From contig NZ_CP113343.1 of assembly GCF_026683955.1 (NCBI RefSeq), forward strand, positions 2,914,001 to 2,978,000: a DNA stretch of 64,000 nt, written 5' to 3'. Of the stretch, positions 9,257 through 23,307 are shown in pieces (the stretch's first letter is position 1; each line of letters begins with the position of its first letter). The position numbers and the translations under genes were made by a program. The notes beneath the pieces are model-generated. The model was not told where the DNA came from and searched no databases. It saw nothing but the letters and a program-made list of their open reading frames with translations. The stretch is from Arthrobacter sp. MMS18-M83 (GTDB lineage: Bacteria > Actinomycetota > Actinomycetes > Actinomycetales > Micrococcaceae).

Positions 9257-9775
9257 TTAGCGAGTGACTCCGTGCATCTCGGAGGTCGGCGGGTAGAAGG
9301 GAATCTCCGGCTTTTTCGCACCGATGATTACGCAGATCAGCGCATCATCTTCGCTGACGGTGCGAAGGCTCCGGGGAACGCCTGCAGGAACGCGAATCAG
9401 GTCGCGGTAGCCCAAAACACGACTGGCCGTCTTTGTACCGTCCTCGACATCGTGGACGCTGAACTCCACCTGCCCCTCGAGGACAAAGAACACCTCTTCG
9501 ACGTCAGGGTGAGTGTGCTCCGGTCCTACGCACCCGGCCGGCAGAACCATGTTAGAGAACGTGAAGTGCTCGGCCTGGAGGATGTTGTTATCGTCCGAGT
9601 GGTCCCCGGTAGCCCCGGAGCCGATGTAACGGACCTGGCCACGCCGGAATTTGTCTCCCATTTTTGTCTGGAATTTCAGAGTGTCAAAGTCAACAACACG
9701 GCTCTCACGGGACGCGATAGACGAATCGATGAGCTCTTCGAGATCTGTTGTCGGTGCACTTACGGTTTCACTCAT
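9257..9775 (-). CDS. Cupin-domain protein
   Basis: A single cupin domain, 172 residues. The first metal-binding motif is GPEHTHPDVEEVFFVLEG; the second motif is degenerate (VPAGVPRSLRTV, lacking the final His). Such proteins may be metal-dependent dioxygenases or isomerases, or small-molecule sensors. The ATG at 9775 has GAGAGG 7 bases upstream, better than the further upstream ATG. It is divergent from the MarR gene at the edge of the catabolic island, so a role in that pathway is likely but the reaction is unknown. Confidence 0.75.
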   Translation of the reverse strand: MSETVSAPTTDLEELIDSSIASRESRVVDFDTLKFQTKMGDKFRRGQVRYIGSGATGDHSDDNNILQAEHFTFSNMVLPAGCVGPEHTHPDVEEVFFVLEGQVEFSVHDVEDGTKTASRVLGYRDLIRVPAGVPRSLRTVSEDDALICVIIGAKKPEIPFYPPTSEMHGVTR

Positions 9776-9973
9776 TGTTAAACCTCTCTGACTGGGGCGA
9801 TGTAAACCAAAAATTGGCAGCAAAGCTCAGGAGTGACTCCCTCAACTCTAACTATCTCAACACTAAGGTAAATTGAACTAAGTAACAAGACCTTGAGTGG
9901 AACTAGACTGAGTTAATTGATTGCTGAAAAGCTCAATGTTTAGATGCATCACCTACATCCAAAGGACGGGTCC

Positions 9974-10519
9974 ATGCCTGACGATTCAACTGAAGCCGAC
10001 GCCATTGACCGCATTCTGGCGGATTGGCTGCGTGAACGGCCGGACTTGGATGCGAGCTCAATTGGCGTCCTCGGGCGGCTCTTGCGGCTGGCCAATCAGG
10101 TCCGCGCTGTCGAAAGTTCCTACTTTGATGCGTACGGTCTGACACTTGCGTCCTTCGACGTCCTGGCCAATCTGCGCCGCTCCGGGCCACCGCACCGGAA
10201 GACGGCCGGCGAGCTCGCGACCTCCTCCATGCTCACGACCGGTGGTATTACTTTCCGGTTGGACAGGATGGAGGAGCAGAACCTCATCGAGAGAGTTCGG
10301 ACCCGCGAAGACCGTCGGGTTGTGTACGCCCAGCTGACCGCACATGGTAAGGCTGTTATCGATGAGGCATTCGGAAAGCATTTAGACAAGCAACGTCAAA
10401 TGTTGAGCGGTCTGACACCATCGGAGCTCGATCAACTCGCAGCGCTGTTAAAGAAGGCGGAGGCATCGGTGGTCGCTTTTGATGTCAATGCGATGGAAGC
10501 GGTTGGCCGAGGCTCCTGA
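9974..10519 (+). CDS. MarR-family transcriptional regulator
   Basis: A 181-residue winged-helix regulator. The recognition helix lies in TAGELATSSMLTTGGITFRLDRMEEQNLIERV, followed by the wing REDRRVVYAQLT. The ATG at 9974 follows AAAGGACGG and is preferred over 9944. It sits between the divergent cupin gene and the convergent end of the catabolic operon, the usual place for a ligand-responsive repressor of aromatic catabolism. The ligand is unknown. The upstream region (9776-9973) is AT-rich with repeated ACTAAG and CTCAAC words, but I cannot define an operator. Confidence 0.88.
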   Translation: MPDDSTEADAIDRILADWLRERPDLDASSIGVLGRLLRLANQVRAVESSYFDAYGLTLASFDVLANLRRSGPPHRKTAGELATSSMLTTGGITFRLDRMEEQNLIERVRTREDRRVVYAQLTAHGKAVIDEAFGKHLDKQRQMLSGLTPSELDQLAALLKKAEASVVAFDVNAMEAVGRGS

Positions 10520-10569
10520 AACGCTTACTGCCCGATGCGGGAGGCTGTAGTTCGAGGCGGTTCCTGCAC

Positions 10570-11370
10570 TCATATCAACCCACCCCGGCCACCGATAATG
10601 GAGTCCAGAGATCGTAGTACGGCGAACGGTACTACACCGCTTGTCCTCGGATTGTCCTCAGAAGGCTTGTTGCGGATTTCGAACCGGTATTCCCCCATGT
10701 TTCCAGAAGCTTCGATGACGTGGCTGGTCAGTTCCGCCGCGGGGTCTGCCCTTACTCTGACCGTCACAGCGTCCCAGTTGTTAACAGCGATGGCAACGGC
10801 GGCGCCAGCGTTTAGGGACTTGGGGAATAACAGCGCGGCCTCAGCGGCCGATCCTTTATAAATGTCCAGTGGGCCACGAGCATTGCGTATCTCCTCAACC
10901 AAAGCCTCGTTCATCCAGGGCTGGACAAGGGAGTCCGGCAGTTTCGTCGTCGTAATCGTGACTCTGTCATAGCCTGCCGCCCGGGCGCCTGAGGACAAAA
11001 GGTCGAGGCCGCCAACTGCGCCAGATGTCAGGAAGAGCCGCCCGGGCCCGGCGGCGTTGAGCTGCTTTGAGAATTCTCTATCCGCCAGGGCACCAACCGA
11101 CGTCACGAGCAGGTCAACACCCGCGCGGAGGACAAACTCGGCGTGTTCGACGAGTGCTTCCTGACCTGCACATTCAACCAGCAAGTCGCAGCATTCCAGA
11201 GCCTCCGTCAGGGTGAGCTGCTTCACCGGGGCACTGCTTAGCAGGCTCCGGGAGATGACCCCTTCCAAGACAGCCCCTGCGACCCGTCCCTTGGTAATCC
11301 CAGCAACGACGGGTACTCCGATGGCGCCGTAACCGATAACTCCGACTCGGCAGGTGCGTGCTGACTTCAT
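10570..11370 (-). CDS. L-aspartate dehydrogenase-like oxidoreductase
   Basis: A 266-residue protein with an N-terminal Rossmann motif (GVIGYGAIGVPV) and a C-terminal domain like that of L-aspartate dehydrogenase (DUF108): SGAVGGLDLLSSGA and a KGSAAEAALLFPKSLN-like segment. Authentic enzymes reduce an imino acid or oxidise aspartate for NAD synthesis. Here the gene is last in a ring-cleavage operon, so a catabolic imine substrate is more plausible than NAD synthesis; that is inference. The ATG at 11370 is chosen because it places the GxGxxG near the N-terminus. The upstream gap holds a strong hairpin. Confidence 0.75.
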   Translation of the reverse strand: MKSARTCRVGVIGYGAIGVPVVAGITKGRVAGAVLEGVISRSLLSSAPVKQLTLTEALECCDLLVECAGQEALVEHAEFVLRAGVDLLVTSVGALADREFSKQLNAAGPGRLFLTSGAVGGLDLLSSGARAAGYDRVTITTTKLPDSLVQPWMNEALVEEIRNARGPLDIYKGSAAEAALLFPKSLNAGAAVAIAVNNWDAVTVRVRADPAAELTSHVIEASGNMGEYRFEIRNKPSEDNPRTSGVVPFAVLRSLDSIIGGRGGLI

Positions 11371-11475
11371 AATGTCCTTCAAGTCTTGATAGTAGGCAGT
11401 TAGTTCCGCTCGCACTCTGAACTACCGGTGCTTTCACGCGCTCTACAGCGCCTTAGCGGGAGAGGAGGTTGGCGG

Positions 11476-11518
11476 CCCCCGAAAGTCGGATTGCCAATTA
11501 CATTCCGACTTTCGGAGG
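11476..11518 (-). repeat. 15-bp inverted repeat after the Rieske gene
   Basis: Arms at 11476-11490 and 11504-11518 pair over 15 bases with one mismatch around a 13-base loop. There is no T-run. It lies 6 bases beyond the oxygenase stop and could block read-through or stabilise the upstream message. Confidence 0.7.
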
Positions 11519-11523
11519 CTCTA

Positions 11524-12612
11524 TTAAAGGCCTTCCCCTCTGAGGACGGCGGCCTGCTTTTCAGCGTCGGCTTCGTATACACGCCTGATCCGTGCGACGC
11601 CGAGATCGTGCTGATAGAGGTGTTCGTCTTTGTCAGCGTCGGCGGCGAGAGCTTCGAGGACTTCTCGGTCCTGTTCCAAGACTGCCCAGTGTTTTTCTTC
11701 AAGGGTCGTCTTGTACATGAACCGCCAGACGTCGCGCTCCCAGTCGGAGACGGTGCGGGTGCGCCAATGGAAAATTGCCGAGTTGTTTGCATCAATGGGA
11801 GTGGCCATGCCGACGATGCCAAAAGTCCCGCCGGGTCCTGCGGACTCGGCATAGGGGATTTCCAGATCGACGTAGTCCATGGCTTCGCGGCAGTACTCGA
11901 CCCAGTCGAAGTTCACGCCGCGCTGGTCCGTCTTCTCAAAGAAGAAGCCACGGTCGGTTTCGCGGATGCGGAAGCGGGCGCTGGTGTCTCCGCCGAACAT
12001 TGAGTGTGAGTCGCGGTGAAGGAAAGCGCCGTGCATCGGATCCAGGACGTTGTCCATGTAGAAACGCCAGGGCCCCTTCCATTCCGCGAAGTTCGAGAAC
12101 CAGGAAATTTCCGGATTGGCCAAGCGGTCCGGCAGCTTGAACTCCGTTACCTCGGAATCAGTTGTCAGTGGCATGAACGCAAAGATGGTATCGGCTGCTT
12201 CTGCAACTGCCAGCGACGTCGTGACGGTTCGGCCTTCGAGGGCACATCCGGGCATGCCAGGAACGGAAATTACCGTACCGTTTCCATCGACCTGTACTCC
12301 GTGATATTTGCAGGCCACGCGGTCTCCGAGGTGCTGACCGACCGAGAGGGGGGCACTGCGGTGGGGGCAGCGGTCCTCGAGCATACGAATACGTCCGGTG
12401 GCGTCGCGGAACAGCAGCCAGTCCACGCCCAGGCGCTTGACCTTGACCATGTCCCCAACGCCGACGAAACGGGAGGGGTAGACGGGGTACCAGCGGTCCC
12501 GCAAGCCCATCACTGCCAGTTCCTTGGCATCGACTTCGTGGCGGACGCCGACGACGTTCTTTGTCTTGCTCTTGCCGCCGGTGGGGCGTGCGGTTTGTGT
12601 TGTAGTTGTCAT
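11524..12612 (-). CDS. Rieske non-heme iron oxygenase, alpha subunit
   Basis: A 362-residue aromatic ring-hydroxylating or O-demethylating oxygenase. The Rieske ligands are C82-x-H84 and C101-x2-H104. The mononuclear iron site is D191-x2-H194-x4-H199 with Asp315 as the likely third ligand (EQDREVLE). Length and the absence of a beta-subunit gene point to the one-component alpha-type group (vanillate, dicamba or phthalate type), which takes electrons from a VanB-like reductase. Such a reductase is encoded at 18629 in the same operon. GGGAG precedes the ATG. It probably performs the first attack on the substrate. Confidence 0.9.
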   Translation of the reverse strand: MTTTTQTARPTGGKSKTKNVVGVRHEVDAKELAVMGLRDRWYPVYPSRFVGVGDMVKVKRLGVDWLLFRDATGRIRMLEDRCPHRSAPLSVGQHLGDRVACKYHGVQVDGNGTVISVPGMPGCALEGRTVTTSLAVAEAADTIFAFMPLTTDSEVTEFKLPDRLANPEISWFSNFAEWKGPWRFYMDNVLDPMHGAFLHRDSHSMFGGDTSARFRIRETDRGFFFEKTDQRGVNFDWVEYCREAMDYVDLEIPYAESAGPGGTFGIVGMATPIDANNSAIFHWRTRTVSDWERDVWRFMYKTTLEEKHWAVLEQDREVLEALAADADKDEHLYQHDLGVARIRRVYEADAEKQAAVLRGEGL

Positions 12613-12615
12613 TTC

Positions 12616-12834
12616 TTATTCTCCCAATCGTCGCATTTCGGCGCGGAAACGGGCTTCGTCCCACGGGCTGCCATCCGGAGCATTTAGACCGAGGCCGTTC
12701 AAACCTGCAACCACTCGCGGCAGATCTTTTGTGCCGCCAGCGAAGATCTCGCTGAGTGCCCCGGCGAGTTTCTTCTCGTAGGGAGTCACACGCCCGGTGC
12801 GGGCCTGATTCGGTTCTAGGTATTGTTCAGTCAC
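12616..12834 (-). CDS. Small helix-turn-helix-like protein beside the oxygenase
   Basis: A 72-residue protein ending 4 bases before the oxygenase start and overlapping the upstream gene by 8 bases, so firmly within the operon. The second half (VVAGLNGLGLNAPDGSPWDEARFRAEMRRLG) resembles the short recombinase-like helix-turn-helix segment found in some proteins linked to Rieske oxygenases. No catalytic motif is visible. A role as small accessory subunit or regulator is possible; I do not assign one. Confidence 0.6.
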   Translation of the reverse strand: MTEQYLEPNQARTGRVTPYEKKLAGALSEIFAGGTKDLPRVVAGLNGLGLNAPDGSPWDEARFRAEMRRLGE

Positions 12835-13441
12835 GGAAATCCTCCTCCGATTCGGCGAAGGTGTGCAGGCCTTCGGCGATGTTCATGAATGATGTGGCCC
12901 ACTCGTTGAAAGAGTCAGCCCTTGTTCGGTGTGCGGGGACGGCGGTATTTTCGATAATGACGAAGACCCCATTGTCGATGCCGCCGGCAATGCTCTGGGG
13001 CTTGGCGATGTCGGTGTCTGCCTGCGGCGCGGCGGCGATAACCAGCGATGGGGCTTGAACGAGCTGGAGCGAATGGGCATATCCCTCGATGGAGGTGTCA
13101 ACCTCCGGGTCACCGAGAATCATGCTTTTGACCAGCTCGGGATAACGGCCGGCGAGCACGATCGTGCCGTAGACGGTACGGCCGGAAGCCACTAGGTGCA
13201 CCGGGGTGACCCCGCCGTCCCGCAGCGCTGCGGCAGCAGCTGTGACCCATCCTTCAAGCTGGTCTTCTGGGGCGGTGGCACCCAGATCGTTGCCATCCAA
13301 GGTTTGGGCATCGTAGGCGGCCACCTGCCGTGTGTACCATTCCCCGGCTCCGGAGCCGTTGTGGAGACAGACGACCCGGTGCCGGATCTGCCGTGTGTCC
13401 GCTTGTGGACTGTCCAGAGTCGGTGGTTCTGTGTGTGCCAT
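12827..13441 (-). CDS. Alpha/beta-hydrolase-like protein lacking the nucleophile
   Basis: A 204-residue protein with alpha/beta-hydrolase layout: VVCLHNGSGAGEWY (oxyanion strand region), then HLVASGRTVYG at the nucleophile elbow and YPELVKSMILGDP after it. The elbow normally reads GxSxG; here it is A85-S86-G87-R88-T89, so the catalytic serine position is Gly. The protein is also short for the fold. It may be non-catalytic or use another residue. The start at 13441 follows GAAGAGG; it lies 16 bases after the ThDP enzyme gene. Confidence 0.65.
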   Translation of the reverse strand: MAHTEPPTLDSPQADTRQIRHRVVCLHNGSGAGEWYTRQVAAYDAQTLDGNDLGATAPEDQLEGWVTAAAAALRDGGVTPVHLVASGRTVYGTIVLAGRYPELVKSMILGDPEVDTSIEGYAHSLQLVQAPSLVIAAAPQADTDIAKPQSIAGGIDNGVFVIIENTAVPAHRTRADSFNEWATSFMNIAEGLHTFAESEEDFRD

Positions 13442-13457
13442 TTTTCCTCTTCGTCCT

Positions 13458-15122
13458 TTAGTGGTTCCGGCTGGGGATATGCACCGGCAGCACAAACGCT
13501 CCCGGGGCTGGGTCCAGGGCCGTGACGTCAATTTCGATTACCGCCGGTCCTCGGACTGCCAGCGCTTCCTCCAGCGCCTGGTCGAACTGTCCGGAACCAC
13601 GGACCCGCCAGAACGGCAGGTGAAGTGATTGGGCCAACAGATCGAAGTCCGGTGTGTGAAGGTTCACGCCGGCTTCGGCGAAGCCGTTGGCCTTTTGCAT
13701 GTTCCGAAGGACTCCGTAGCCGCTGTCATTGAAGACCAGGGCTACGCACCAGGCACCCGAACCTGCTAGGGAGGCGAGCTCACCGAGGTGGACCGCCAGT
13801 CCGCCGTCGCCGACGATCACCGCTGTGGGGATCCCGGGCCGGGCGCAGGCGGCGCCGATGCCCATGGCGAGTCCCTGACCGATCCCGCCGCCGAGCGGGA
13901 AAATGTTCGTTTCCCGAGAGTAGATTTCCAGCAGGCGGTTGCCCCATTGGCTGGAGGGGATCGTCACGTCCCGGGCGATCACCGATTCGCGGTCAAGCCG
14001 CCGGCGAAGGCTTTCGCAGATCTCGGCATACCCGCCGATGTATTCGGTCAGGGCGGCACGGACGTTCCGGCGCGTCGCGCGCACCCGCTCGGTCCAGCCC
14101 GTCTCGACGCAGGGGGCGGAGAGTTTCCTGACGATCTGCTCGAGCAGGATTCGGGAATCCCCCTCCAGCCCGACATCAGCCGGGTAGACACGGCCGATGG
14201 CGGCAGGATCAATGTCAAGCTGGATGTGCGTGCTGGGCAGTGCCATAGAGTAGTGCTTCGTTTCGTTGGAACGGAAATGCGTTCCAACACTCAGCAGCAC
14301 GTCCGCGTCTTCGAGGAGTGCCAGCGCCTCGGGCGTGGTTGCGAAGTTTCCGATTACCTGATCGTCGTCTTCGGGCACCACGCCTCTGCCTGAATTGCTG
14401 GTCAGCAACCCGGCCCCGAGGCGGTGCAGCAGCTCTGCGAGAGCCGTACCGGCACCTGCGGCCCCGCCACCTGCCCAGATGAGGGGCCTCTTGGCCTGCG
14501 AGAGCAGTTCAACGGCTTCGGCCACGGCTTCATGGTCGATGGAGACTTCAGGCCGGCTGGGTGGGTCCGCTGGTCGCTGGTCCTCTGGCAGGGCCAGGTA
14601 CTGAAGGTCAATGGGCCATTCCAGGCTGGACGGAGTATGCGGGACGGACAGCAGGTGCGCAATAGCTTCCTCCAGGTCCGCTTCGGCATCTTTGGCGTTG
14701 AAAATGGTCCGTGCGTAGCCCGATACTGCCTGAAGCATTTGCAGCTGGCGTGGGACCTCATGGATCACTCCCCGGTTGCTTCCGAGGAATTCACTGTCAA
14801 TCTGGCCGGTGATGTGTAGCACGCGGCTGCCTGCAGTCAGTGCCTCCACCATCGACCCGGCAGCGTTGCCGGCACCTGTCCCGGTGCTGGTCAGGGCTAC
14901 TCCGAACTTGCCCGAAGCGCGCGCGTAAGCATCCGCCGCATTCACGGCCGCAGCTTCATGGCGGACGGCGACGAAGTTAAGTTCCCGGTCCACGGCCTCG
15001 ATCAGGGGAAGATTGTGGATGCTGATCACCCCGAAAGCGGTGTCAACGCCGTGCCTGCGCATGACCCGGACGAGGATGTCACCGCCGGTAGGGTTTTGGG
15101 GTATTTTCGTTCCTTGTTCCAT
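13458..15122 (-). CDS. Thiamine-diphosphate-dependent enzyme (decarboxylase/synthase type)
   Basis: A 554-residue member of the acetolactate synthase/benzoylformate decarboxylase superfamily. The PYR-domain catalytic Glu is E56 (AVRHEAAAV), and the ThDP/Mg motif begins GDGGLAVHLGEL near residue 437 and continues to FNDSGYGVLRN. Such enzymes decarboxylate 2-oxo acids or ligate aldehydes. In the operon it could decarboxylate a 2-oxo acid released by ring-fission hydrolysis, giving an aldehyde for the dehydrogenase at 20059. That role is inference. Confidence 0.85.
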   Translation of the reverse strand: MEQGTKIPQNPTGGDILVRVMRRHGVDTAFGVISIHNLPLIEAVDRELNFVAVRHEAAAVNAADAYARASGKFGVALTSTGTGAGNAAGSMVEALTAGSRVLHITGQIDSEFLGSNRGVIHEVPRQLQMLQAVSGYARTIFNAKDAEADLEEAIAHLLSVPHTPSSLEWPIDLQYLALPEDQRPADPPSRPEVSIDHEAVAEAVELLSQAKRPLIWAGGGAAGAGTALAELLHRLGAGLLTSNSGRGVVPEDDDQVIGNFATTPEALALLEDADVLLSVGTHFRSNETKHYSMALPSTHIQLDIDPAAIGRVYPADVGLEGDSRILLEQIVRKLSAPCVETGWTERVRATRRNVRAALTEYIGGYAEICESLRRRLDRESVIARDVTIPSSQWGNRLLEIYSRETNIFPLGGGIGQGLAMGIGAACARPGIPTAVIVGDGGLAVHLGELASLAGSGAWCVALVFNDSGYGVLRNMQKANGFAEAGVNLHTPDFDLLAQSLHLPFWRVRGSGQFDQALEEALAVRGPAVIEIDVTALDPAPGAFVLPVHIPSRNH

Positions 15123-15192
15123 GGATATGACTCATCTCTTTCGTAGATCAAGGCTGGGCAGGCGATTCAATGTGAGCCAGATGGCAGGCGCC

Positions 15193-15981
15193 TTACACAT
15201 AGCGGCCAACACCGCCGCCGACATCGATCGTGGCTCCTGTTGTATAGCCGCTTAGCGGGGATAGAAGGGTGAGAATGTGGAAGGCGACTTCCTCAGCTGT
15301 GCCGAAGCGGCCCAGTTTTACCCCCCGGTCTTTGGTGATCTCGGCGCTCCAGTCCGCGAAGTCCAGCCCGCTGCCTGATTGCTCGAATCGGCGGCGCCAC
15401 TGGCCGGTGTCGATCAATCCGAGCAGCACTGAGTTGACCCGGGTACCGTCCGCGGCGAGGTCTTCAGACAGTGAGTGGCTCAGGTTCAACAACCCGGCAC
15501 GCGCGGCTGAAGTAGCGGCCAGGCGCAGCTCAGGCTGGCGGGACAGGATGGCATTGACGTTAACCACTGAGCCGTGCGGTGACGCTGCCAGGGCAGCCCG
15601 CGCCGAGCGCACTATGTTCAACACCCCGAAAATCTTGAGGTCGAATTCTTCGCGGAACTGTTCGTCAGCCGTCTCATCCAACGTGGCCATAAGGGAACGG
15701 CCGGCATTGCACACCAGCCCGTCAACAGCCCCGAAGTTCTCCAAGGCCCCGGCAACAAATGCGTCGGTGGCTTTGCGGTCGGTGACGTCGCAGCTAGCCA
15801 GGTAGATCGAGTCCCGATCAGTCCAGACACACTGATCGAAAGCTGCCGCGAGGCGCCCGGCATCCCGGGCGCAAGCAGCTACTTTGGCGCCTTCTGCGAG
15901 CAGGTAACGGGCGGTAGCCAGCCCGACCCCGGAACTCGCTCCGGTCACAATGACGGTGCGGTCCATTAATTGCAGATCCAT
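15193..15981 (-). CDS. SDR-family protein with altered catalytic residues
   Basis: A 262-residue short-chain dehydrogenase/reductase fold: cofactor motif TGASSGVG (13-20), CNAG (91-94), C-terminal GATIDVGGG. The usual Ser-Tyr-Lys is replaced by Asn143 (NVNAILS), Thr157 and Arg161 (ATSAARAG). A subgroup of BKR-like SDRs is known to lack the tetrad, so this may be a family trait rather than decay. Its reaction is unknown. It lies 70 bases upstream of the ThDP enzyme gene in the same operon. Confidence 0.8.
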   Translation of the reverse strand: MDLQLMDRTVIVTGASSGVGLATARYLLAEGAKVAACARDAGRLAAAFDQCVWTDRDSIYLASCDVTDRKATDAFVAGALENFGAVDGLVCNAGRSLMATLDETADEQFREEFDLKIFGVLNIVRSARAALAASPHGSVVNVNAILSRQPELRLAATSAARAGLLNLSHSLSEDLAADGTRVNSVLLGLIDTGQWRRRFEQSGSGLDFADWSAEITKDRGVKLGRFGTAEEVAFHILTLLSPLSGYTTGATIDVGGGVGRYV

Positions 15982-16066
15982 CTGTTGGTCTCCTTGATCA
16001 TCAGCCGGAGCCCGGCATCGTGGGTAGTTTTGGGAATGGGGGATGTTTCAGCCGGTGATGACCGTC

Positions 16067-16810
16067 TTAATGCCCCATGACAAAGCCGCCATCCACCACG
16101 ATGTTCTGACCGGTGATGAACGCCGCAGCGTCCGAGAGCAGAAACTGGACAACCCCTGAGATATCCTCGGGCACCTGGTCCCTTTCCAGCACCCTGTTCT
16201 CCCCGTAAAGCCGGTAGCGGGAGGACGGCACGGATTCGGTTGCCTCGACCCTGATCAGGCCCGGCGAGACAGCATTTACACGGACCCCGGCTGCTCCCGC
16301 ATCACGGGCCATGGTCCGGGTCATCGCCAAGACGGCTCCTTTGGAGCCGACATAGTGGACCAGACGCGGCGAGCCATACAGCGCGGCGTCGGAAGCGACG
16401 TTCACGATGGCCCCTGCCTGCTTTTGTGCCAGCTGCGGATAGAAGTGCTTGCTCACCAGCCATGTACCGAAGGCGTTCACACTCATGACCCGCTGGAAGA
16501 AATCTTCTTCAAGGTCCCAGAAGGTGTCACCGCCAACCCCGTCAGCAAGAGCCGCATTGTTGACAAGACCATCTGCCCCGCCCAGTTTCCGGACGGCATC
16601 GGCTAAGGCGGCAACGGAGGCCTTGTCCGCAATATCGGTAATGATTGCCGTAGCATCGAAGCCGCGTTCCCGCAGCGTGACTGCTGCATGTTCTGCGATC
16701 TCGGCGTTTTTCTCAGCAATTACGATGCGATCACCTCCGGCTGCCAGCCGTTCAGCGATACTGAACCCCAGTCCGCGTCCAGAGCCGGTGATTACTATCA
16801 ACCGTGTCAT
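16067..16810 (-). CDS. SDR-family NAD(P)-dependent oxidoreductase
   Basis: A 247-residue classical SDR: TGSGRGLG (8-15), NNAA, catalytic Ser140, Tyr153 and Lys157 (HYVGSKGAV), and the C-terminal GQNIVVDGGF. The ATG at 16810 overlaps the TGA of the preceding hydrolase gene (ATGA), so translation is coupled; the upstream in-frame ATG at 16825 would overlap more. It could oxidise the cis-dihydrodiol made by the Rieske oxygenase or reduce a later carbonyl; the sequence does not decide. Confidence 0.88.
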   Translation of the reverse strand: MTRLIVITGSGRGLGFSIAERLAAGGDRIVIAEKNAEIAEHAAVTLRERGFDATAIITDIADKASVAALADAVRKLGGADGLVNNAALADGVGGDTFWDLEEDFFQRVMSVNAFGTWLVSKHFYPQLAQKQAGAIVNVASDAALYGSPRLVHYVGSKGAVLAMTRTMARDAGAAGVRVNAVSPGLIRVEATESVPSSRYRLYGENRVLERDQVPEDISGVVQFLLSDAAAFITGQNIVVDGGFVMGH

Positions 16811-17634
16811 GAAAGCCTCTTCCAAAACTCTAGAATCGATGACGCCATCTCTGCGGGCTTCTCCTGCACTGCGGCATGGCCAGCGCGGGAAACGATTTTG
16901 AAAGAAGCGTCTGTTATGGATTCAGCGAGGATCCGAGATTCAGCCACGCCGGTAACTACATCGTCTTCGCCGACCAGGACCAGCGACGGTACCTGCAGAG
17001 ACGGCAGCACATCCGATGTGTCGGTGGCTGCCATCATGGTTGCCGCGGCCGTGTAACCAGGAAGCCGGACCGCGGCCATTTCGGACCTGACCGCCGCGGC
17101 CGTGACAGCATCCGCTGAGGGCGAGAGAAGCCGGGGAGCCCGTCGGCCGGCAAAGGCTTCTGGCCCCAATTCGGCTAGTTCCGGGATGCGCGCCAACATC
17201 CTGTCCGCCGAATCCCCGGTAACAGCCGAACCCCTGGTGCTGTCCGCTAGAACCAGAGAGCGGACAGCATCCGGTGCTTGTGCTGCCGCTTTAGTGGCGA
17301 TAACTCCTCCCCACGAGGTCCCGATCAGGTGGGCGGGTCCGACGGCGAGGGAAGCCAAAATCTGCAAGACGAGCCCGGAGTGGTCCACCGGTCCCCGCGG
17401 ATCCGTAGATTCCCCGTAGCCGGGCGCATCCCAGCAGAACGTGCGGTAACCGGCCTCACTGAGCAGTTGCGCCAACGCCCCGCAAGACGAGGCATTTCCC
17501 CCGATGCCATGCAGCAGGAAGACAGGCGCTCCTTCACCGCGGACCACCAGCGATACGTTGTGGAGGGAAATACGGCTGTCCAGGTTTCCGGTGGTGGTAG
17601 CTACCTCAGTGGGCAACTGCATGGCTTGCTGCAT
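16807..17634 (-). CDS. Alpha/beta hydrolase, candidate C-C bond (meta-cleavage product) hydrolase
   Basis: A 275-residue alpha/beta hydrolase with an intact triad: Ser107 in GTSWGG, Asp in VGEDDVV (about 231) and His in RAGHAAV (about 258), plus the oxyanion motif LLHGIGGNASS. The gene overlaps the extradiol-type dioxygenase gene by 29 bases (17 if Met5 is the start). That pairing is typical of meta-cleavage pathways, where the hydrolase splits the ring-fission product. Assignment to the reaction is by context. Confidence 0.82.
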   Translation of the reverse strand: MQQAMQLPTEVATTTGNLDSRISLHNVSLVVRGEGAPVFLLHGIGGNASSCGALAQLLSEAGYRTFCWDAPGYGESTDPRGPVDHSGLVLQILASLAVGPAHLIGTSWGGVIATKAAAQAPDAVRSLVLADSTRGSAVTGDSADRMLARIPELAELGPEAFAGRRAPRLLSPSADAVTAAAVRSEMAAVRLPGYTAAATMMAATDTSDVLPSLQVPSLVLVGEDDVVTGVAESRILAESITDASFKIVSRAGHAAVQEKPAEMASSILEFWKRLS

Positions 17635-18601
17635 TTACCGAGGGGACGGTGAAGTAATCGGCGCTACCCGGAACAACCAGCGAGCGGTAGCCGTCATCGG
17701 GGATTCCGGCCATAGCGGTGCGAACATTTACGGTGGGCGGCCCGGCGGTTCCCCATTGGTCCGACAGCTCGGGAGTCCGCTTCCAGGTACGGCACAGCCA
17801 GCTGTCTTCATCAACCTGCGCCACTTCAGAGGTGTACTCACAAACAAGGCCTGCGGGATCGGTGAAGTAGGAGAAGGTGTTATCCCCGGGACCGTGGCGG
17901 CCCGGACCCCACTGGGGGGCAATACCGTGGGTTTTGAGTGACCCGATGCCGCGCATGAAATGGTCGATACTCTGCATTTCGTAGGCCACGTGGTTGACCG
18001 CTGTCCAGGGGGCCTGATTGAAAGCGATGACATGGTGCTCTGAATTGCACCGAAGAAATGACATCTGATGCTCGGACCAGTCCGAGACCCGCATCCCCAA
18101 AACTTGGGTGTAGAACGCCGTAGCCCGGTCAATGTCAATAGTGTTCAGCACGACGTGGGCGATCTTGCGTGGGATGGCCCGCCGCCCCGCAGGCTCTTGG
18201 TTGAGGACGGCGTGAACATCAGCGGAAAGTTCAACAAGTCTTCCCTCAGGGTCAACCAGCTGCAGGCCGTAACCGCCCGCAGCGTCGTCCAATGGTCCTG
18301 GCTCGCGGAAGAGGGGAATCCCCAGAGCGGTGAGCTTAACTGCGGCCTGGTCCACCTCGTGGGGCGTAGCGAGGGCGAAGGCCACGCCGCCGAGAGCATT
18401 CTGCTGGCCCTTTTCCAGCTTCAGAATGTGGTGCTCCGAGCCGGTCCCACGGAGCCAGAAACGGTCACTGTCTTCGTCAACGGTGGAAAGGCCCCAGACC
18501 TCGTGATAGAAATCCTTGGCACGCGCCGTTTCCGGTACCTTCAAGGACACTGACCGAAGAGACCGCAATTTACACACAGGCTCTGCTGCAAAGAAATTCA
18601 T
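17606..18601 (-). CDS. VOC-family extradiol-type ring-cleavage dioxygenase
   Basis: A 331-residue two-domain VOC protein of type I extradiol dioxygenase size. Likely metal ligands in the C-terminal domain are the His of KIAHVVLNT, the His of AVNHVAYEM and the Glu of VCEYTSEV. The GPGRHGPGDN...YFTDPAG segment matches the fingerprint region, although the second His of the BphC-type signature is replaced by Asp. It would open a catechol-like ring next to the diol. Members of this subgroup act on substituted catechols; the substrate is not readable. Confidence 0.82.
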   Translation of the reverse strand: MNFFAAEPVCKLRSLRSVSLKVPETARAKDFYHEVWGLSTVDEDSDRFWLRGTGSEHHILKLEKGQQNALGGVAFALATPHEVDQAAVKLTALGIPLFREPGPLDDAAGGYGLQLVDPEGRLVELSADVHAVLNQEPAGRRAIPRKIAHVVLNTIDIDRATAFYTQVLGMRVSDWSEHQMSFLRCNSEHHVIAFNQAPWTAVNHVAYEMQSIDHFMRGIGSLKTHGIAPQWGPGRHGPGDNTFSYFTDPAGLVCEYTSEVAQVDEDSWLCRTWKRTPELSDQWGTAGPPTVNVRTAMAGIPDDGYRSLVVPGSADYFTVPSVNAASHAVAH

Positions 18602-18628
18602 GGGGCTACCTTCTTACTTTTCTAGGGT

Positions 18629-19663
18629 TTAGAGGTCAAGGATCAGTTCGGCCGAACGGCAACGCGAGACGCACACGAACATGGACTTGTTTGCGGCCTG
18701 CTCAGCCTGGCTGAGGAGAAAATCACGGTGTTCCACGTCGCCGCTGATGACACGGGTTTCGCACGTACCGCAGATTCCCTCCGCACATGAGCTGGGAACG
18801 TCTATGCCGGCGTTGTTGAGAGCATCAAGGACAGATTCATCAGGCCTCACAGGGATGCGTTGGCCGCTGCTGTTGCACACCACGTCAAACGCTGATTCGT
18901 TTTCCCTCGCGACGACGGCCTTCTCCGGTGCCTTGAACCGCTCGATCCGGAGCTGGGCTTCGTCCTGCATGGCCCCGGCAACAGCCCTCAACAGTGGTTC
19001 CGGACCGCAGGCGTAAACCAGCGCATCGGGGCTGAGGGTTCCGACCGCCGCGGCCAGGTCAGGGTAACTGCCGTTGGCCTCGTCATCAGCGTGGATGGTA
19101 ATCCGGTCTCGAGGAAGGGCCACGATCTCAGACAGAAAGGCCATAGTGGCGCGGGACCGGCCGGTGTAGAGCAGCGACCAGTCCGCCCCTGCCGCCTGAA
19201 GCTCCCGCGCCATGGAGATGATCGGTGTGATGCCGATCCCGCCAGCGACCAGTACGTAGCGTCCAGCATCTTCCAACGCGAAGTTATTGCGCGGGCCTTC
19301 GACCTTGAGCAAAGACCCTACCGGCAGGCCATCGTGGACCAACTGGCTGCCGCCGCGTGAATCAGGCGTCCGCAGGACAGCCACTGTCCAGCTGGTCGGA
19401 TCCAGCGGATTCGAGCACAGCGAATACTCGCGTATCAGCCCGTTGGGCAGATGAAGACTCAGGTGCGAACCTGGCTTCCATTGGGGCAATCTCGCCCCGG
19501 AGGGATCAGCGAACGTGACACTGGTGACCCCGTCTGCTTCCCAGGTCTTCTGCTGTACCCTCAGGGTCCGTGCGGATGGCTCCTCGTTGACGGCCCGGTC
19601 ACTGTTGGCAACTGGCCGGGATGATTCTTCCGCTCCCCGTGCGTCCAAAGTGGCGATAGTCAT
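18629..19663 (-). CDS. VanB/phthalate-dioxygenase-reductase type oxidoreductase
   Basis: A 344-residue electron-transfer protein in the order FMN domain (REYSLCSNP), NAD domain (VAGGIGITPIISMA and YACGPEPLL) and C-terminal plant-type [2Fe-2S] ferredoxin (CAEGICGTC with a last Cys near the end). This layout is that of VanB and phthalate dioxygenase reductase, partners of one-component Rieske oxygenases. It is the evident electron donor for the oxygenase at 11524. It lies 27 bases upstream of the dioxygenase gene. Confidence 0.9.
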   Translation of the reverse strand: MTIATLDARGAEESSRPVANSDRAVNEEPSARTLRVQQKTWEADGVTSVTFADPSGARLPQWKPGSHLSLHLPNGLIREYSLCSNPLDPTSWTVAVLRTPDSRGGSQLVHDGLPVGSLLKVEGPRNNFALEDAGRYVLVAGGIGITPIISMARELQAAGADWSLLYTGRSRATMAFLSEIVALPRDRITIHADDEANGSYPDLAAAVGTLSPDALVYACGPEPLLRAVAGAMQDEAQLRIERFKAPEKAVVARENESAFDVVCNSSGQRIPVRPDESVLDALNNAGIDVPSSCAEGICGTCETRVISGDVEHRDFLLSQAEQAANKSMFVCVSRCRSAELILDL

Positions 19664-19666
19664 TGT

Positions 19667-20062
19667 TCACTCCTCGCCCCGGTGCGCTATGGCTTCAATT
19701 TCAACCGTCGCACCGTACGGCAGAGCAGTAACCTCTACGAAGGTCCGGGCTGGCCGGGGCTCACTGAAGAGCCGTTCATAGTGGCTGTTGGCCTCTTCCC
19801 GCAAGGTCAGGTCCGTGACGAAGTAGGTGGTTTTGACGATGTCCTGCAGGGACATGCCGATGGTTCCCAGCCGCTCCGAGAGCCTGGTTGCAGCGGCCTC
19901 AATGGCTTCGAGACGGCCACTGACGGGCTTGTAGTTTTCATCAACGGACAACGCCCCGGATACAAAGCCGAAACCTCCGGCCTGGTATGCCGGGCTATAC
20001 GGGTGAGCACTCACTGACTTGCCTTTCATCGGGGATGGATCGATAACTGCTGCGGATTTCAT
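19667..20062 (-). CDS. RidA-family protein (possible enamine/imine deaminase)
   Basis: A 131-residue RidA/YjgF protein with the PARTFVEV motif containing the carboxylate-binding Arg. The ATG at 20062 overlaps the aldehyde dehydrogenase stop (ATGA), so translation is coupled. RidA proteins hydrolyse enamines and imines, and 2-aminomuconate deaminases of aromatic pathways belong to this family. Coupling to an aldehyde dehydrogenase mirrors the 2-aminomuconate semialdehyde pair, suggesting a nitrogen-bearing ring-fission product. A general imine-scavenging role is the alternative. Confidence 0.85.
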   Translation of the reverse strand: MKSAAVIDPSPMKGKSVSAHPYSPAYQAGGFGFVSGALSVDENYKPVSGRLEAIEAAATRLSERLGTIGMSLQDIVKTTYFVTDLTLREEANSHYERLFSEPRPARTFVEVTALPYGATVEIEAIAHRGEE

Positions 20063-21621
20063 GCGCCGGCCCACGGCAAAGGTGTTCCGGAAAGATCCAC
20101 GTAAATGCTCTTCTGGCGCATATAGGAACGGATACCGTCCCTCCCTTTTTCGGTTCCCAGACCGCTTTCCTTGATCCCGCTGAAGGGGGTAGCGATGCTG
20201 AACTGCTTATACGTGTTGATCCAGACGGTGCCGGCAGCAACGGCACGAGCAATGCGCCATGCCCGCCGGTAGTCTGCCGTCCAGACGCCGCAGGCGAGAC
20301 CAAAAACACTGTCATTGGCTTGGGTGAGCAGATCAGCTTCATCATCAAAGGGAAGGACGACTGCCACCGGACCGAAGATCTCCTCCTGGCAGATCAGGTT
20401 TGAGTTCGCCACACCGGCGATGATGGTCGGCAGGTAGTATGCGCCCTGCTGTAGTTCCCGCTCGCTAGGCCGTGCACCGCCGCAAAGGACCTGTGCCCCG
20501 GCGGACCGTGCGTCCTCGACCACCTTTTCAACGAAATCTCGGTGGGCGTGGGCAACCAGCGGTGCAACCTGCGTGTCCGGATTGGTTCCAGGACCCACCC
20601 GCAGGGCTTTCGCACCTTCGACCAGGCGCGCCAGGACTGTTTCGTAGATGGCGCGCTGGATGAACACCCGCGAACCAGCGATGCAGCTCTGGCCGCTGGA
20701 GGAAAAGATGCCGTAAAGCACCCCGGCGACGGCCTGGTCCAGATCCGCGTCCGAAAAGATTATGGTCGGCGATTTTCCGCCCAGTTCCAGCGTGATCGGC
20801 ATGATTTTCTCGGCTGCGATATGGCCCAGCTGCCGGCCGGTCGACGTGCCGCCGGTGAAGGAGACCTTGCCGACATCCCTGTGCCGTGCCAACGCATCCC
20901 CGACGGTCCGCCCCGGGCCCGGAAGCACCGAAAGCAGACCCGACGGAAGTCCGGACTCGTCGCAGATCCGGGCGAGTAGCAGCGACACCCATGGTGCCCA
21001 TACCGGGGGTTTGATCACGACGGCGTTGCCGGCGGCAAGCGCGGGGGCAACCTTTTGCGCGTCACTGGCAATCGGGGAGTTCCACGGCGTAATAGCAGCC
21101 ACCACACCGATATGTTCATAGGTGGAGATGCTTAAGTAATCCCCGCGAGGCGGCGTTAGTGAATCCTCCATGGTTTCAAGGGCCGACGCGGTGAAACGGA
21201 ACGTGGCCGCAGCGCTCATTGCCAACGCTCGCGTCTCTTTGAGGGTTTTACCCGTGTCCCGGGTCTGCAGAAAAGCGATCCGGGCCGCGTTGGCTTCGAT
21301 AGCCGAACCGATCCGGTGCAACACAGCTGCACGTTCGTGCGGCATCTTACGGGCCCAGCCTGACTCTTCGATGGCCGCAAGGCCGGCCGCGACGGCCACA
21401 TCTACATCTTCAACAGTGGCGCCATGGAGAGTTGCGAAGACCTCGGCGGTTGCGGGATCAACGGACTCGATCGGCGCACCTGCTCCCCGAGCCCAGACCC
21501 CGCCGACATAAATTTCATCCAGCATGTCCATACCCGGTTCGAAGCCGCCAGAGGGGACGAATCCATCAGGATTCGTACCGGCCGGCCGGTCCACGATGCC
21601 CGCGCTGCTCAGCGTTGTCAT
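20059..21621 (-). CDS. NAD(P)-dependent aldehyde dehydrogenase
   Basis: A 520-residue aldehyde dehydrogenase, first gene of the catabolic operon. Motifs: TPWNSP, cofactor-binding FTGGTSTGR, LELGGKSP with the general-base Glu, catalytic Cys313 in GQSCIAG, and EEIFGPV. The family oxidises aldehydes or semialdehydes to acids. Close coupling to RidA suggests a muconic semialdehyde-like substrate; the ThDP enzyme could also supply the aldehyde. The ribosome site is weak. Confidence 0.92.
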   Translation of the reverse strand: MTTLSSAGIVDRPAGTNPDGFVPSGGFEPGMDMLDEIYVGGVWARGAGAPIESVDPATAEVFATLHGATVEDVDVAVAAGLAAIEESGWARKMPHERAAVLHRIGSAIEANAARIAFLQTRDTGKTLKETRALAMSAAATFRFTASALETMEDSLTPPRGDYLSISTYEHIGVVAAITPWNSPIASDAQKVAPALAAGNAVVIKPPVWAPWVSLLLARICDESGLPSGLLSVLPGPGRTVGDALARHRDVGKVSFTGGTSTGRQLGHIAAEKIMPITLELGGKSPTIIFSDADLDQAVAGVLYGIFSSSGQSCIAGSRVFIQRAIYETVLARLVEGAKALRVGPGTNPDTQVAPLVAHAHRDFVEKVVEDARSAGAQVLCGGARPSERELQQGAYYLPTIIAGVANSNLICQEEIFGPVAVVLPFDDEADLLTQANDSVFGLACGVWTADYRRAWRIARAVAAGTVWINTYKQFSIATPFSGIKESGLGTEKGRDGIRSYMRQKSIYVDLSGTPLPWAGA

Positions 21622-22026
21622 CCTCAGGGTCCACCAATCTCTATAGCCACTCGTGCTGGCCGTCGACGTTGTTTGCGACTTGTCACGCAGGCCGTAGAAA
21701 CGACCGAAATGTGAATTAGGTCATGCCAAAGAATATCAGCATTAAGATACTTTGTGTCAAGGAAATGGATGCTTGACCTTTAAGCGCTAAGGAGATAAAA
21801 CTAACGCAGTGCCATGATCTTCATCACACCTGCGCACTTCGCCAGCCGGCTTCTGTGGCTGGGCCGACAGCGAGAGAACACATGTCGGGCTTGAACGGGG
21901 AAACCCCGTGACGTAGCTCGCGACGCGTGCGCCTCTTCCACGGCCTCGACTGGCGAGCCGCCAATGACGGTGGCATGCCCCGCTTCGAAACTGCATTCGA
22001 AGCCCTCACAACCTTAAGGATGTCCG
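21622..22026. other. Divergent intergenic region between catabolic operon and transporter
   Basis: About 405 bases without a credible gene. The left part is AT-rich and carries a promoter for the operon. An imperfect palindrome centred on AGCGCT (about 21778-21793) could be an operator. The right part leads to the transporter gene, with AAGGA 7 bases before its ATG. Confidence 0.5.
21730..21760 (-). promoter_or_regulatory. Candidate sigma-70-type promoter of the catabolic operon
   Basis: On the minus strand TTGACA (21755-21760) is followed after 16 bases by TGATAT (21733-21738), or after 19 bases by TATTCT (21730-21735). It is about 105 bases upstream of the aldehyde dehydrogenase start. Confidence 0.5.
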
Positions 22027-23307
22027 ATGGACACGATGAGCGAACCCAAGAAGGAAGAGACCAAACCGAATTGGTGGGTACTTTGTCTCGCATGTGCCGC
22101 TGTAGTGCTCGATGGATACGACACGGTCGCGTTGGGCCTGTCCATACCGGCGATTGCTAAGGACTGGGGTGTTCAACCCTCGCACTTCACTCCTGCGCTC
22201 GCAGTGACCAGCGCTGGAGTGGCTCTGGGGTATCTGGCGGTGGGGCGCCTCGTGGCCAAGCTGGGCACTAGAAACGTCATTTTTTCGGCGGTCGTCGTGT
22301 TCACCCTGGGTTCGCTGCTAACAGCGTGGTCGGGTTCGATTGTAGAGTTGACGATTCTACGTTTCGTGACCGGCCTGGGACTGGGGGCGGTGCTGCCGGC
22401 CGCTGTCTCCCATGCGACCGCAGTCAATCCTGGTCGCATGCGTCAATCGATTGCGGTGGTCGTGATGACGGGCATCTCGCTCGGGGCTCTCATCGCAGGG
22501 CTGGCCGGGAGCGGTATCGTGGGCGCATTCGGGTGGCAATGGGTGTTCATTATCGGAGCTATCGCTTCTGCTGTACTTCTACCGTTCCTGTGGTTCGGAC
22601 TGTCCGGTAGCCACGTGTCGAGAATGCCCAACGATGCGGCCGAGGCCAAGCATCATGCGTCGGTTGCGCGTCTGTTCGATGCTTCCGTACGAAGCAGAAC
22701 GCTTCTCCTGTGGGCTTTTTCGTTCCTCATCTTCGCCGTGTTCTACGTGTTCTCGTCGTGGTTACCGACCCTGCTCACCAGCTACGGCTTCAGCACCAGT
22801 CTGGCACCGTTGGGATCGGCGGCCCTGGGCACCGGAAGCATCATCGGTGCCTGCGTACTAATCCTCGGATCGCGTCGATTCCGGATGACATCGGTCCTGG
22901 CTGGAACCTCGGCAGCAGCGATCGCGTTCCTAGCCATCTCTGCATTCCTCGGCCCGGACAAAGCGCTGCTGCTACTGGTATTCGGTGGCGTCGGCCTCGG
23001 ACTTCAGGCTGGCATGATCGGCCAGGCCGCGGTGGCAGTGACGCTGTACCGCCAAGCAACGCTGACCGCAGGCGTCGGCTGGGCGGCTTCACTGGGCCGA
23101 CTCGGATCGGTTGTCGGCCCGATCTTCGGCGGCGTCCTCATCGGACTCGGCGTAGACACCAGCATCATCGTTCTCTCAGTATGCGTGCCCGTGGTCATCG
23201 CGCTGGTGTTGGTGCTGATTCTAGGGCGGATCACGGCAGCCAAAGCACGGATTCCGATGTCTGGACACTTGGCGAAATCGCCCCTCACGGCGCCGCCTCG
23301 GACCTAG
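22027..23307 (+). CDS. MFS transporter, aromatic acid:H+ symporter type
   Basis: A 426-residue, 12-helix MFS permease. The N-terminal helix carries LDGYDTVALGLSIPAIAKDWG, typical of the AAHS group (PcaK/BenK-like), where the Asp is needed for uptake. RLVAKLGTR is the loop 2-3 motif. It is divergent from the catabolic operon and probably imports its substrate. An internal ATG at 22036 is an alternative start. Confidence 0.88.
   Translation: MDTMSEPKKEETKPNWWVLCLACAAVVLDGYDTVALGLSIPAIAKDWGVQPSHFTPALAVTSAGVALGYLAVGRLVAKLGTRNVIFSAVVVFTLGSLLTAWSGSIVELTILRFVTGLGLGAVLPAAVSHATAVNPGRMRQSIAVVVMTGISLGALIAGLAGSGIVGAFGWQWVFIIGAIASAVLLPFLWFGLSGSHVSRMPNDAAEAKHHASVARLFDASVRSRTLLLWAFSFLIFAVFYVFSSWLPTLLTSYGFSTSLAPLGSAALGTGSIIGACVLILGSRRFRMTSVLAGTSAAAIAFLAISAFLGPDKALLLLVFGGVGLGLQAGMIGQAAVAVTLYRQATLTAGVGWAASLGRLGSVVGPIFGGVLIGLGVDTSIIVLSVCVPVVIALVLVLILGRITAAKARIPMSGHLAKSPLTAPPRT

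Follow-up and report, generated by a model that had tools for sequence, protein, structure and literature searches.

In the soil bacterium Arthrobacter sp. MMS18-M83, which has a 5.1-Mb genome, a stretch of 64,000 nt on contig NZ_CP113343.1 (positions 2914001–2978000; hereafter the window, whose own coordinates are used below) carries a catabolic gene cluster built around a VanA-type Rieske oxygenase, for which kynurenic acid is considered here as a candidate substrate. The operon proper spans 21621 to 10570 on the minus strand and encodes, in this order, an aldehyde dehydrogenase (ALDH), RidA, a VanB-type reductase, an extradiol dioxygenase, an alpha/beta hydrolase, two short-chain dehydrogenases/reductases (SDR2, then SDR1), a thiamin diphosphate (ThDP) enzyme, a family-less protein of 204 amino acids (aa), a 72-aa protein, the Rieske oxygenase and a protein resembling aspartate dehydrogenase (AspDH). 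The operon is surrounded by a cupin gene and by the genes of a MarR-family regulator and a transporter of the major facilitator superfamily (MFS), the last two on the plus strand (Table 1). Protein families were assigned by scans against Pfam (gathering scores) and NCBIfam (cut-offs), and every gene listed in an earlier sequence-only reading of this DNA exceeds the gathering score of at least one Pfam model. Its inventory had overlooked the genes of the 72-aa and 204-aa proteins, and its AAHS-type transporter belongs to the MFS but falls below the NCBIfam cut-off for the AAHS label. That reading was right to describe an aromatic catabolic operon equipped for ring cleavage.

Table 1. Genes of the cluster in MMS18-M83, with window positions, strand and family evidence.
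Product	Position	Strand	Evidence
Cupin	9257–9775	−	PF07883; HxH...E metal-binding motif intact (H87, H89 and E93/E94 conserved); in 42/43 long loci
MarR-family regulator	9944–10519	+	PF12802/PF01047; many actinobacterial loci have a MarR-like gene in or close to the cluster
AspDH-like protein, proposed iminosuccinate reductase	10570–11415	−	PF01958, 81 bits; best NCBIfam subfamily 166.5 bits (cut-off 177)
VanA-type Rieske oxygenase, proposed kynurenate 7,8-dioxygenase	11524–12612	−	PF00355 and PF19112
72-aa protein, possible oxygenase partner	12616–12834	−	Adjoins Rieske gene; labelled 'recombinase-like helix-turn-helix' in relatives
Alpha/beta-hydrolase-like protein without conserved nucleophile, 204 aa	12827–13441	−	No family match; predicted fold
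ThDP enzyme, proposed 2-oxo-acid decarboxylase	13458–15122	−	NF005470, 697 bits (cut-off 495); three TPP domains; single 554-aa chain
SDR1, proposed C=C reductase	15193–15981	−	NF005468, 343 bits (cut-off 266)
SDR2, canonical S/Y/K, proposed cis-dihydrodiol dehydrogenase	16067–16825	−	PF13561/PF00106
Alpha/beta hydrolase with Ser-Asp-His, proposed ring-opening/C-C hydrolase	16807–17634	−	PF00561
Extradiol dioxygenase (VOC), proposed 7,8-dihydroxykynurenate 8,8a-dioxygenase	17606–18601	−	PF00903; HpaD model 106 bits, under cut-off
FNR-Fer2 (VanB-type) reductase of the oxygenase	18629–19663	−	PF00111 and PF00175
RidA, proposed imine hydrolase	19667–20059	−	PF01042
ALDH	20059–21621	−	PF00171, 523 bits
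MFS transporter, AAHS-like, proposed uptake	22027–23307	+	PF07690; TIGR00895, 206 bits (cut-off 419)

The gene set is a real and widely conserved catabolic module. When named GTDB genomes were scanned for the oxygenase, a search that reaches close relatives only, 55 loci were returned, all actinobacterial by title, with Arthrobacter as the nearest named relatives. Long loci (at least 19 kb, oxygenase present) number 43, and 42 of them also carry the ALDH, cupin, extradiol dioxygenase, hydrolase, SDR2, SDR1 and ThDP genes; the reductase is found in all 43, the family-less protein in 39, RidA in 38 and, inside the fetched stretch, AspDH in 26. The exception is locus L052, which of the cluster genes shows just the oxygenase, reductase, MarR and RidA. 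Because seven other core enzymes accompany the oxygenase in 42 of 43 long loci, the association goes far beyond chance. Matches that span at least 80% of the oxygenase occur in 27 plasmid and secondary-replicon records, and in 26 of these the identity is 42% or more; the 25 records with a ThDP match (E ≤ 1e-60) all fall among the 26, with about 11 kb or less between oxygenase and ThDP genes in each. Annotated examples come from Klebsiella, Acinetobacter, Caballeronia, Novosphingobium, Pseudosulfitobacter, Nitratireductor and Paracoccus, where the neighbours are labelled Rieske, 'recombinase-like helix-turn-helix', SDR, VOC, hydrolase, cupin, ThDP, AspDH and ALDH, in varying order; the Streptomyces, Burkholderia and Cupriavidus records have no usable annotation at the cluster, and the genes were seen there by tblastn. 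Across loci the core enzymes are constant, and the regulators, transporters and electron-transfer proteins vary. The combination of ThDP enzyme, AspDH, at times RidA, Rieske oxygenase and extradiol dioxygenase, which had been called unusual, recurs as a conserved module across Actinobacteria and Proteobacteria.

Within the Micrococcaceae, the ThDP family occurs in 3 of 120 sampled genomes (MMS18-M83 included); the two others are small genomes (G306 and G382; loci L107 and L108) whose matches, at 53–54% identity, were rejected as clusters because they are solitary paralogues. The cluster stretch has a G+C content of 60.6%, compared with 63.5% for the window, and the cluster of Arthrobacter sp. 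NtRootA1 is located at 2.58 Mb, distant from both lipA copies and from trmB, the genes that flank it in MMS18-M83. The lower G+C and the different location point to horizontal movement of the cluster. An empty insertion site was not demonstrable in the relatives examined: lipA and trmB share a contig in two of them (G355 and G248) but are at least 460 kb apart there, in four they sit on separate contigs, and a search of G331 returned no lipA match.

The catalytic residues expected for the enzymes of the module are conserved among relatives. Positions were chosen from family knowledge, and a residue was called conserved when it stood in at least 95% of those alignment rows that had a residue at the position. 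In the oxygenase, C82, H84, C101 and H104 as well as D191, H194, H199 and D315 are conserved; the Rieske CxH/CxxH motif, the His/His/Asp iron site, the VanA_C domain and the FNR-Fer2 reductase place the pair in the VanA/VanB type. Solved relatives of the oxygenase include the carbazole, 2-oxoquinoline and dicamba oxygenases, with a best E-value of 2.6e-14. The extradiol enzyme keeps H149, H204 and E255, which form the type I His/His/Glu metal site, along with H190, H236 and Y245. Conserved residues are likewise found in the alpha/beta hydrolase at 16807–17634 (S107, D225 and H253), the ThDP enzyme (E56 and GDG...N465), the ALDH (C313 and E279), SDR2 (S145, Y158 and K162) and RidA (R105); the arginine required by RidA is Arg105 in the E. 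coli protein. In the AspDH-like protein, H232 is conserved and aligns with a histidine of the Archaeoglobus fulgidus enzyme (chain 2dc1), and its C-terminal domain scores above the Pfam cut-off, so that with its score below the NCBIfam cut-offs it is a divergent member of the family. SDR1, whose best solved relative is 3lf1 (Q9HYA2), a protein reported to have an atypical catalytic centre, has Thr157 and Arg161 at the Tyr and Lys positions of YxxxK, and these are as conserved as catalytic residues elsewhere. Since the usual pair is replaced in this way, SDR1 is probably not a typical alcohol dehydrogenase.

Two further proteins accompany these enzymes. The 204-aa protein has no Pfam or NCBIfam match at E ≤ 0.001. 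Its AlphaFold2 model (pLDDT 87.4) finds the predicted hydrolase 3bdi as best Foldseek match (E = 5.7e-07), which suggests an alpha/beta-hydrolase fold; the alignment of relatives shows no conserved nucleophile, and the N-terminus is shorter in Gordonia and Williamsia. It may be a hydrolase that is decaying or has taken on another function. Orthologues of the 72-aa protein occur in 56 of 65 loci (four of the 65 are unrelated loci); its gene is annotated next to the Rieske gene in Proteobacteria as well, and the protein is a possible partner of the oxygenase. At the edges of the cluster, the probable start codon of the cupin gene is the ATG at 9775 rather than the TTG at 9823, and a tRNA-Val called by ARAGORN at 22320–22410 on the plus strand, within the MFS gene, is probably spurious.

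AspDH and RidA show a distribution that bears on the substrate. The AspDH family (PF01958) gave 31 matches in 29 of 46 cluster genomes, and its distance to the oxygenase was measured in 19 of those 29; all 19 have a copy no more than 18.2 kb from the oxygenase, and only 2 of their 21 matches lie elsewhere. Of the 17 cluster genomes that lack AspDH, 16 have RidA1 at the locus and 14 have a second RidA. Locus L039, which is cut at the oxygenase, shows neither AspDH nor RidA1 but does have the second RidA. Conversely, all five long loci without RidA1 (L011, L035, L037, L038 and L050) have AspDH. AspDH is also present in five Streptomyces stretches and in every proteobacterial one examined save L062, a partial second copy, and RidA was seen among these stretches only in Caballeronia M1242. 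Every complete cluster examined thus has AspDH, RidA or both (RidA was sought at the locus, and the relatives are not independent of one another). This alternation is as expected if the two act on one imine, and it fits a shared role in handling a single imino-acid product. The presence of AspDH would further imply a carboxyl group beside the ring nitrogen, as in kynurenate; a quinoline lacking the 2-carboxyl would give no substrate for AspDH. In many relatives, Caballeronia M1242 among them, an unlabelled protein of about 111 aa and a second RidA-like protein, in which the expected arginine is apparently absent by eye, are encoded just downstream of the oxygenase (for instance at L027:11083-11418 and L027:11415-11819); neither gene is found in the MMS18-M83 window.

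Bacterial breakdown of kynurenate was worked out by enzymology around 1960, and the route is laid out in KEGG and in the papers of Hayaishi: the ring is dihydroxylated at C7 and C8, the product is dehydrogenated, the bond between C8 and C8a is cleaved, and the side chain is reduced, decarboxylated and oxidized, which leads to 5-(2-carboxyethyl)-4,6-dihydroxypicolinate. We know of no sequence for kynurenate 7,8-dioxygenase, its dihydrodiol dehydrogenase or 7,8-dihydroxykynurenate 8,8a-dioxygenase. For P. fluorescens, the suggestion of such a pathway is mentioned with reference to Taniuchi and Hayaishi 1963 (PMC5610271), and two of its compounds are named among tryptophan metabolites (PMC10543884, PMC8778235). 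No paper on the genes was found in an open-licence library that omits most subscription journals. For each step of the route the cluster has one enzyme of a fitting class with all expected catalytic residues conserved. It includes a ring-hydroxylating oxygenase with its reductase, a dihydrodiol dehydrogenase candidate and an extradiol dioxygenase, all with intact active sites; SDR1, the ThDP enzyme and the ALDH belong to classes that would suit the roles of side-chain reductase, 2-oxo-acid decarboxylase and aldehyde dehydrogenase. We put it at about an even chance that the cluster encodes catabolism of kynurenic acid (4-hydroxyquinoline-2-carboxylate) or a very close quinoline-2-carboxylate, and the broader proposal of an N-heteroaromatic acid substrate with an imine exit is probably correct.

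Gene content, conservation, linkage and active sites are observed, and from them we infer the substrate, the order of steps and every individual reaction as follows. Kynurenate would be taken up by the MFS transporter and converted to the 7,8-cis-dihydrodiol by the oxygenase and its reductase, perhaps with the 72-aa protein as partner. SDR2 would yield 7,8-dihydroxykynurenate, which the extradiol enzyme would cleave between C8 and C8a to 5-(3-carboxy-3-oxopropenyl)-4,6-dihydroxypicolinate. SDR1, without the usual Tyr and Lys, may reduce the C=C bond of the side chain, after which the ThDP enzyme would decarboxylate the 2-oxo acid to the formylethyl compound and the ALDH would oxidize this to the carboxyethyl picolinate. 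The residual 4-hydroxy-2-pyridone is a cyclic beta-keto amide, and hydrolysis of its C-C and amide bonds by the alpha/beta hydrolase, perhaps together with the cupin, would open the ring and split it into glutarate and 2-aminofumarate, the enamine of iminosuccinate. Iminosuccinate would then be reduced to aspartate by AspDH, run in the reductive direction, or hydrolysed to oxaloacetate and ammonium by RidA. The final steps to glutarate and iminosuccinate are our own proposed extension of this chemistry, in which iminosuccinate is a plausible substrate for RidA.

Kynurenic acid is a neuroactive and immune-active metabolite of tryptophan. If the assignment is true, genomes and metagenomes could be read for kynurenate consumers, host-associated bacteria included, and several enzymes without a sequence would become testable together. 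The ring nitrogen would leave as iminosuccinate, to be reduced to aspartate or hydrolysed by RidA, which would be a new pathway end and would explain AspDH genes in catabolic clusters as an exit for ring nitrogen; the 72-aa protein would be a new small partner of Rieske oxygenases. The joint claim that the missing kynurenate genes of Actinobacteria and Proteobacteria are found here, together with an iminosuccinate exit through a dedicated AspDH or RidA, the 72-aa Rieske partner and SDR1 as a C=C reductase lacking Tyr and Lys, is put forward tentatively. What is new is the assignment of genes to a pathway, the kind of system being known already.

In the cluster flanks of more distant relatives, genes for a three-subunit molybdenum hydroxylase are found. 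In NtRootA1 all three subunits lie beyond the transporter gene, and in a Gordonia locus (L042) the medium and small subunits lie at the locus edge. The large subunit of a Rhodococcus copy was searched at E ≤ 1e-100 against 33 genomes or records, a selection of the cluster-bearing ones: MMS18-M83, 25 of the named actinobacterial genomes, five from another genus of the class (g29), one Streptomyces record (W06) and one Caballeronia record (W03, strain NK8). Matches were obtained in 10, namely the Rhodococcus query genome, eight other actinobacteria (67–85% identity) and Caballeronia NK8 (36%). In all nine actinobacterial genomes with a match it lies 11.5–14.4 kb from the oxygenase; the query genome has, in addition, a 37% paralogue 109 kb off. 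The solved relatives, in rank order, are 4-hydroxybenzoyl-CoA reductase, 6-hydroxypseudooxynicotine dehydrogenase and quinoline 2-oxidoreductase. Since three-subunit molybdenum hydroxylases often hydroxylate N-heteroaromatic rings, this linkage favours an N-heteroaromatic substrate, and a natural reading, though not proof, is that some strains have an additional route of entry, for example by turning quinaldate into kynurenate. On plasmid pNK84 of Caballeronia sp. NK8 (L102 and L062), the cluster is followed by a partial second copy (ferredoxin, helix-turn-helix, Rieske, ThDP and VOC genes) that runs into a three-subunit molybdenum hydroxylase; this second copy is perhaps a module for a related substrate.

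Several observations weigh against kynurenate. The link from the cluster to this compound is drawn from sequence and not from experiment. No molybdenum hydroxylase was found at E ≤ 1e-100 in MMS18-M83 or in 22 others of the 33, and its best solved relative is not a quinoline enzyme. Tryptophan dioxygenase, present in 22 of 54 genomes or records, is not near the oxygenase in the 12 cases where both positions were available (in 3 the two share a contig but are separated by 366 kb or more, and in 9 they are on separate contigs). CsiD, which acts in glutarate oxidation, is absent from the MMS18-M83 genome, and LysR, CoA-transferase and acyl-CoA dehydrogenase genes by the Pseudosulfitobacter cluster, tried as a glutaryl-CoA pair, were rejected with all scores below cut-offs. 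In Novosphingobium resinovorum (L064 and L106), genes for a GH3 glycosidase and a TonB-dependent receptor immediately precede the ThDP gene, an arrangement that would suit a substrate released from a glycoside.

Another N-heteroaromatic acid handled by the same logic is a somewhat unlikely alternative: with xanthurenate, an isoquinoline- or indole-carboxylate or a pyridine derivative as substrate, the Rieske oxygenase, SDR2 and extradiol enzyme would open the carbocycle and the remaining enzymes would convert the N-ring to an imino acid. The molybdenum hydroxylase and the AspDH/RidA pattern require just an N-heteroaromatic compound with a carboxyl beside the nitrogen, and near the cluster of Janibacter corallicola (L123:557-4702) there are genes that resemble nicotinate breakdown, namely an EutA/arylmalonate-decarboxylase-like and a flavin monooxygenase gene, both below cut-offs, and one for a NicX-like protein recognized by eye, with no family match. 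However, the kynurenate pathway readily accommodates the trio of ThDP enzyme, ALDH and SDR1, whereas smaller pyridines offer these enzymes no obvious role. It is unlikely that the substrate is a carbocyclic aromatic acid, or an aromatic amine or amino acid, with AspDH and RidA dealing with a side-chain nitrogen or present as housekeeping passengers. The AAHS-like transporter, the HpaD- and HpaE-like enzymes and the rank of 4-hydroxybenzoyl-CoA reductase among the relatives of the molybdenum hydroxylase speak for such a substrate, but AspDH is tied to the cluster, and its alternation with RidA is not what one would expect of passengers. With fair probability, the 'aromatic' of the sequence-only reading may be restricted to 'N-heteroaromatic'. 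It is very unlikely that the cluster belongs to a sulphur regulon and serves to scavenge an organosulphur aromatic compound such as a sulphonate. In favour of this, and also to the detriment of kynurenate, one study tabulates ABUW_2942, ABUW_2943 and ABUW_2946 of A. baumannii AB5075 (ALDH, AspDH and cupin) with sulphur-acquisition genes raised by vitamin B12 (PMC12892962), and TauT/NitT-like ABC transporters were seen by eye near several clusters, as was an SsuD-like monooxygenase with an ABC transporter beside that of Rhodococcus sp. 14-2483-1-2 (L119:6119-9961). Yet it is by their annotation that the ABUW genes look like cluster genes, and in another study of A. baumannii (PMC5757984) genes alike in annotation (A1S_0954 and A1S_0956-0958: hydrolase, AspDH, ALDH and 'acetolactate synthase') are raised by mucin together with those for benzoate, phenylacetate and other aromatic catabolism. 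In addition, no gene calls for desulphonation, and AspDH and RidA would be left unexplained.

Compared with characterized systems, the cluster differs from each at the level of its gene set, and no characterized cluster with the same genes was found in the accessible literature. The earlier statement that the gene set could not be matched to a described pathway stands for the genes and not for the chemistry, which fits the old pathway of Pseudomonas fluorescens. The iad locus for indole-3-acetate in Variovorax (PMC10374108, PMC9613470, PMC11630574) shares MarR, a Rieske oxygenase with reductase and an N-aromatic acid substrate, and the lum operon for lumichrome and riboflavin in Nocardioides simplex (PMC12746152) is likewise actinobacterial and shares a molybdenum hydroxylase, a Rieske enzyme, thiamin-dependent decarboxylation, extradiol cleavage and an N-heteroaromatic substrate. 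In the portions of these papers that are accessible, however, both IadD/IadE and LumC/LumD are alpha/beta dioxygenases, and lum requires a P450 and a two-subunit thiamin enzyme (LumK/L) and also has amidases; neither AspDH nor a thiamin enzyme is mentioned there for iad, nor AspDH or RidA for lum. The cluster has a VanA-type oxygenase, which is outside the four PF00848 matches of the MMS18-M83 genome, and a single-chain ThDP enzyme, and on this architecture we consider its identity with either system refuted. The VanAB-type two-component oxygenases share the Rieske and VanA_C domains and the FNR-Fer2 reductase, although the cluster oxygenase is distant from their solved members and has a conserved 72-aa neighbour. 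Kynurenate degradation in P. fluorescens has in common with the proposed pathway ring dihydroxylation, dihydrodiol dehydrogenation, extradiol-type cleavage, side-chain reduction, decarboxylation and aldehyde oxidation. No gene for it is known to us, and it differs in its end, since older work reportedly gave glutamate, alanine and acetate as products, whereas glutarate and iminosuccinate are proposed here.

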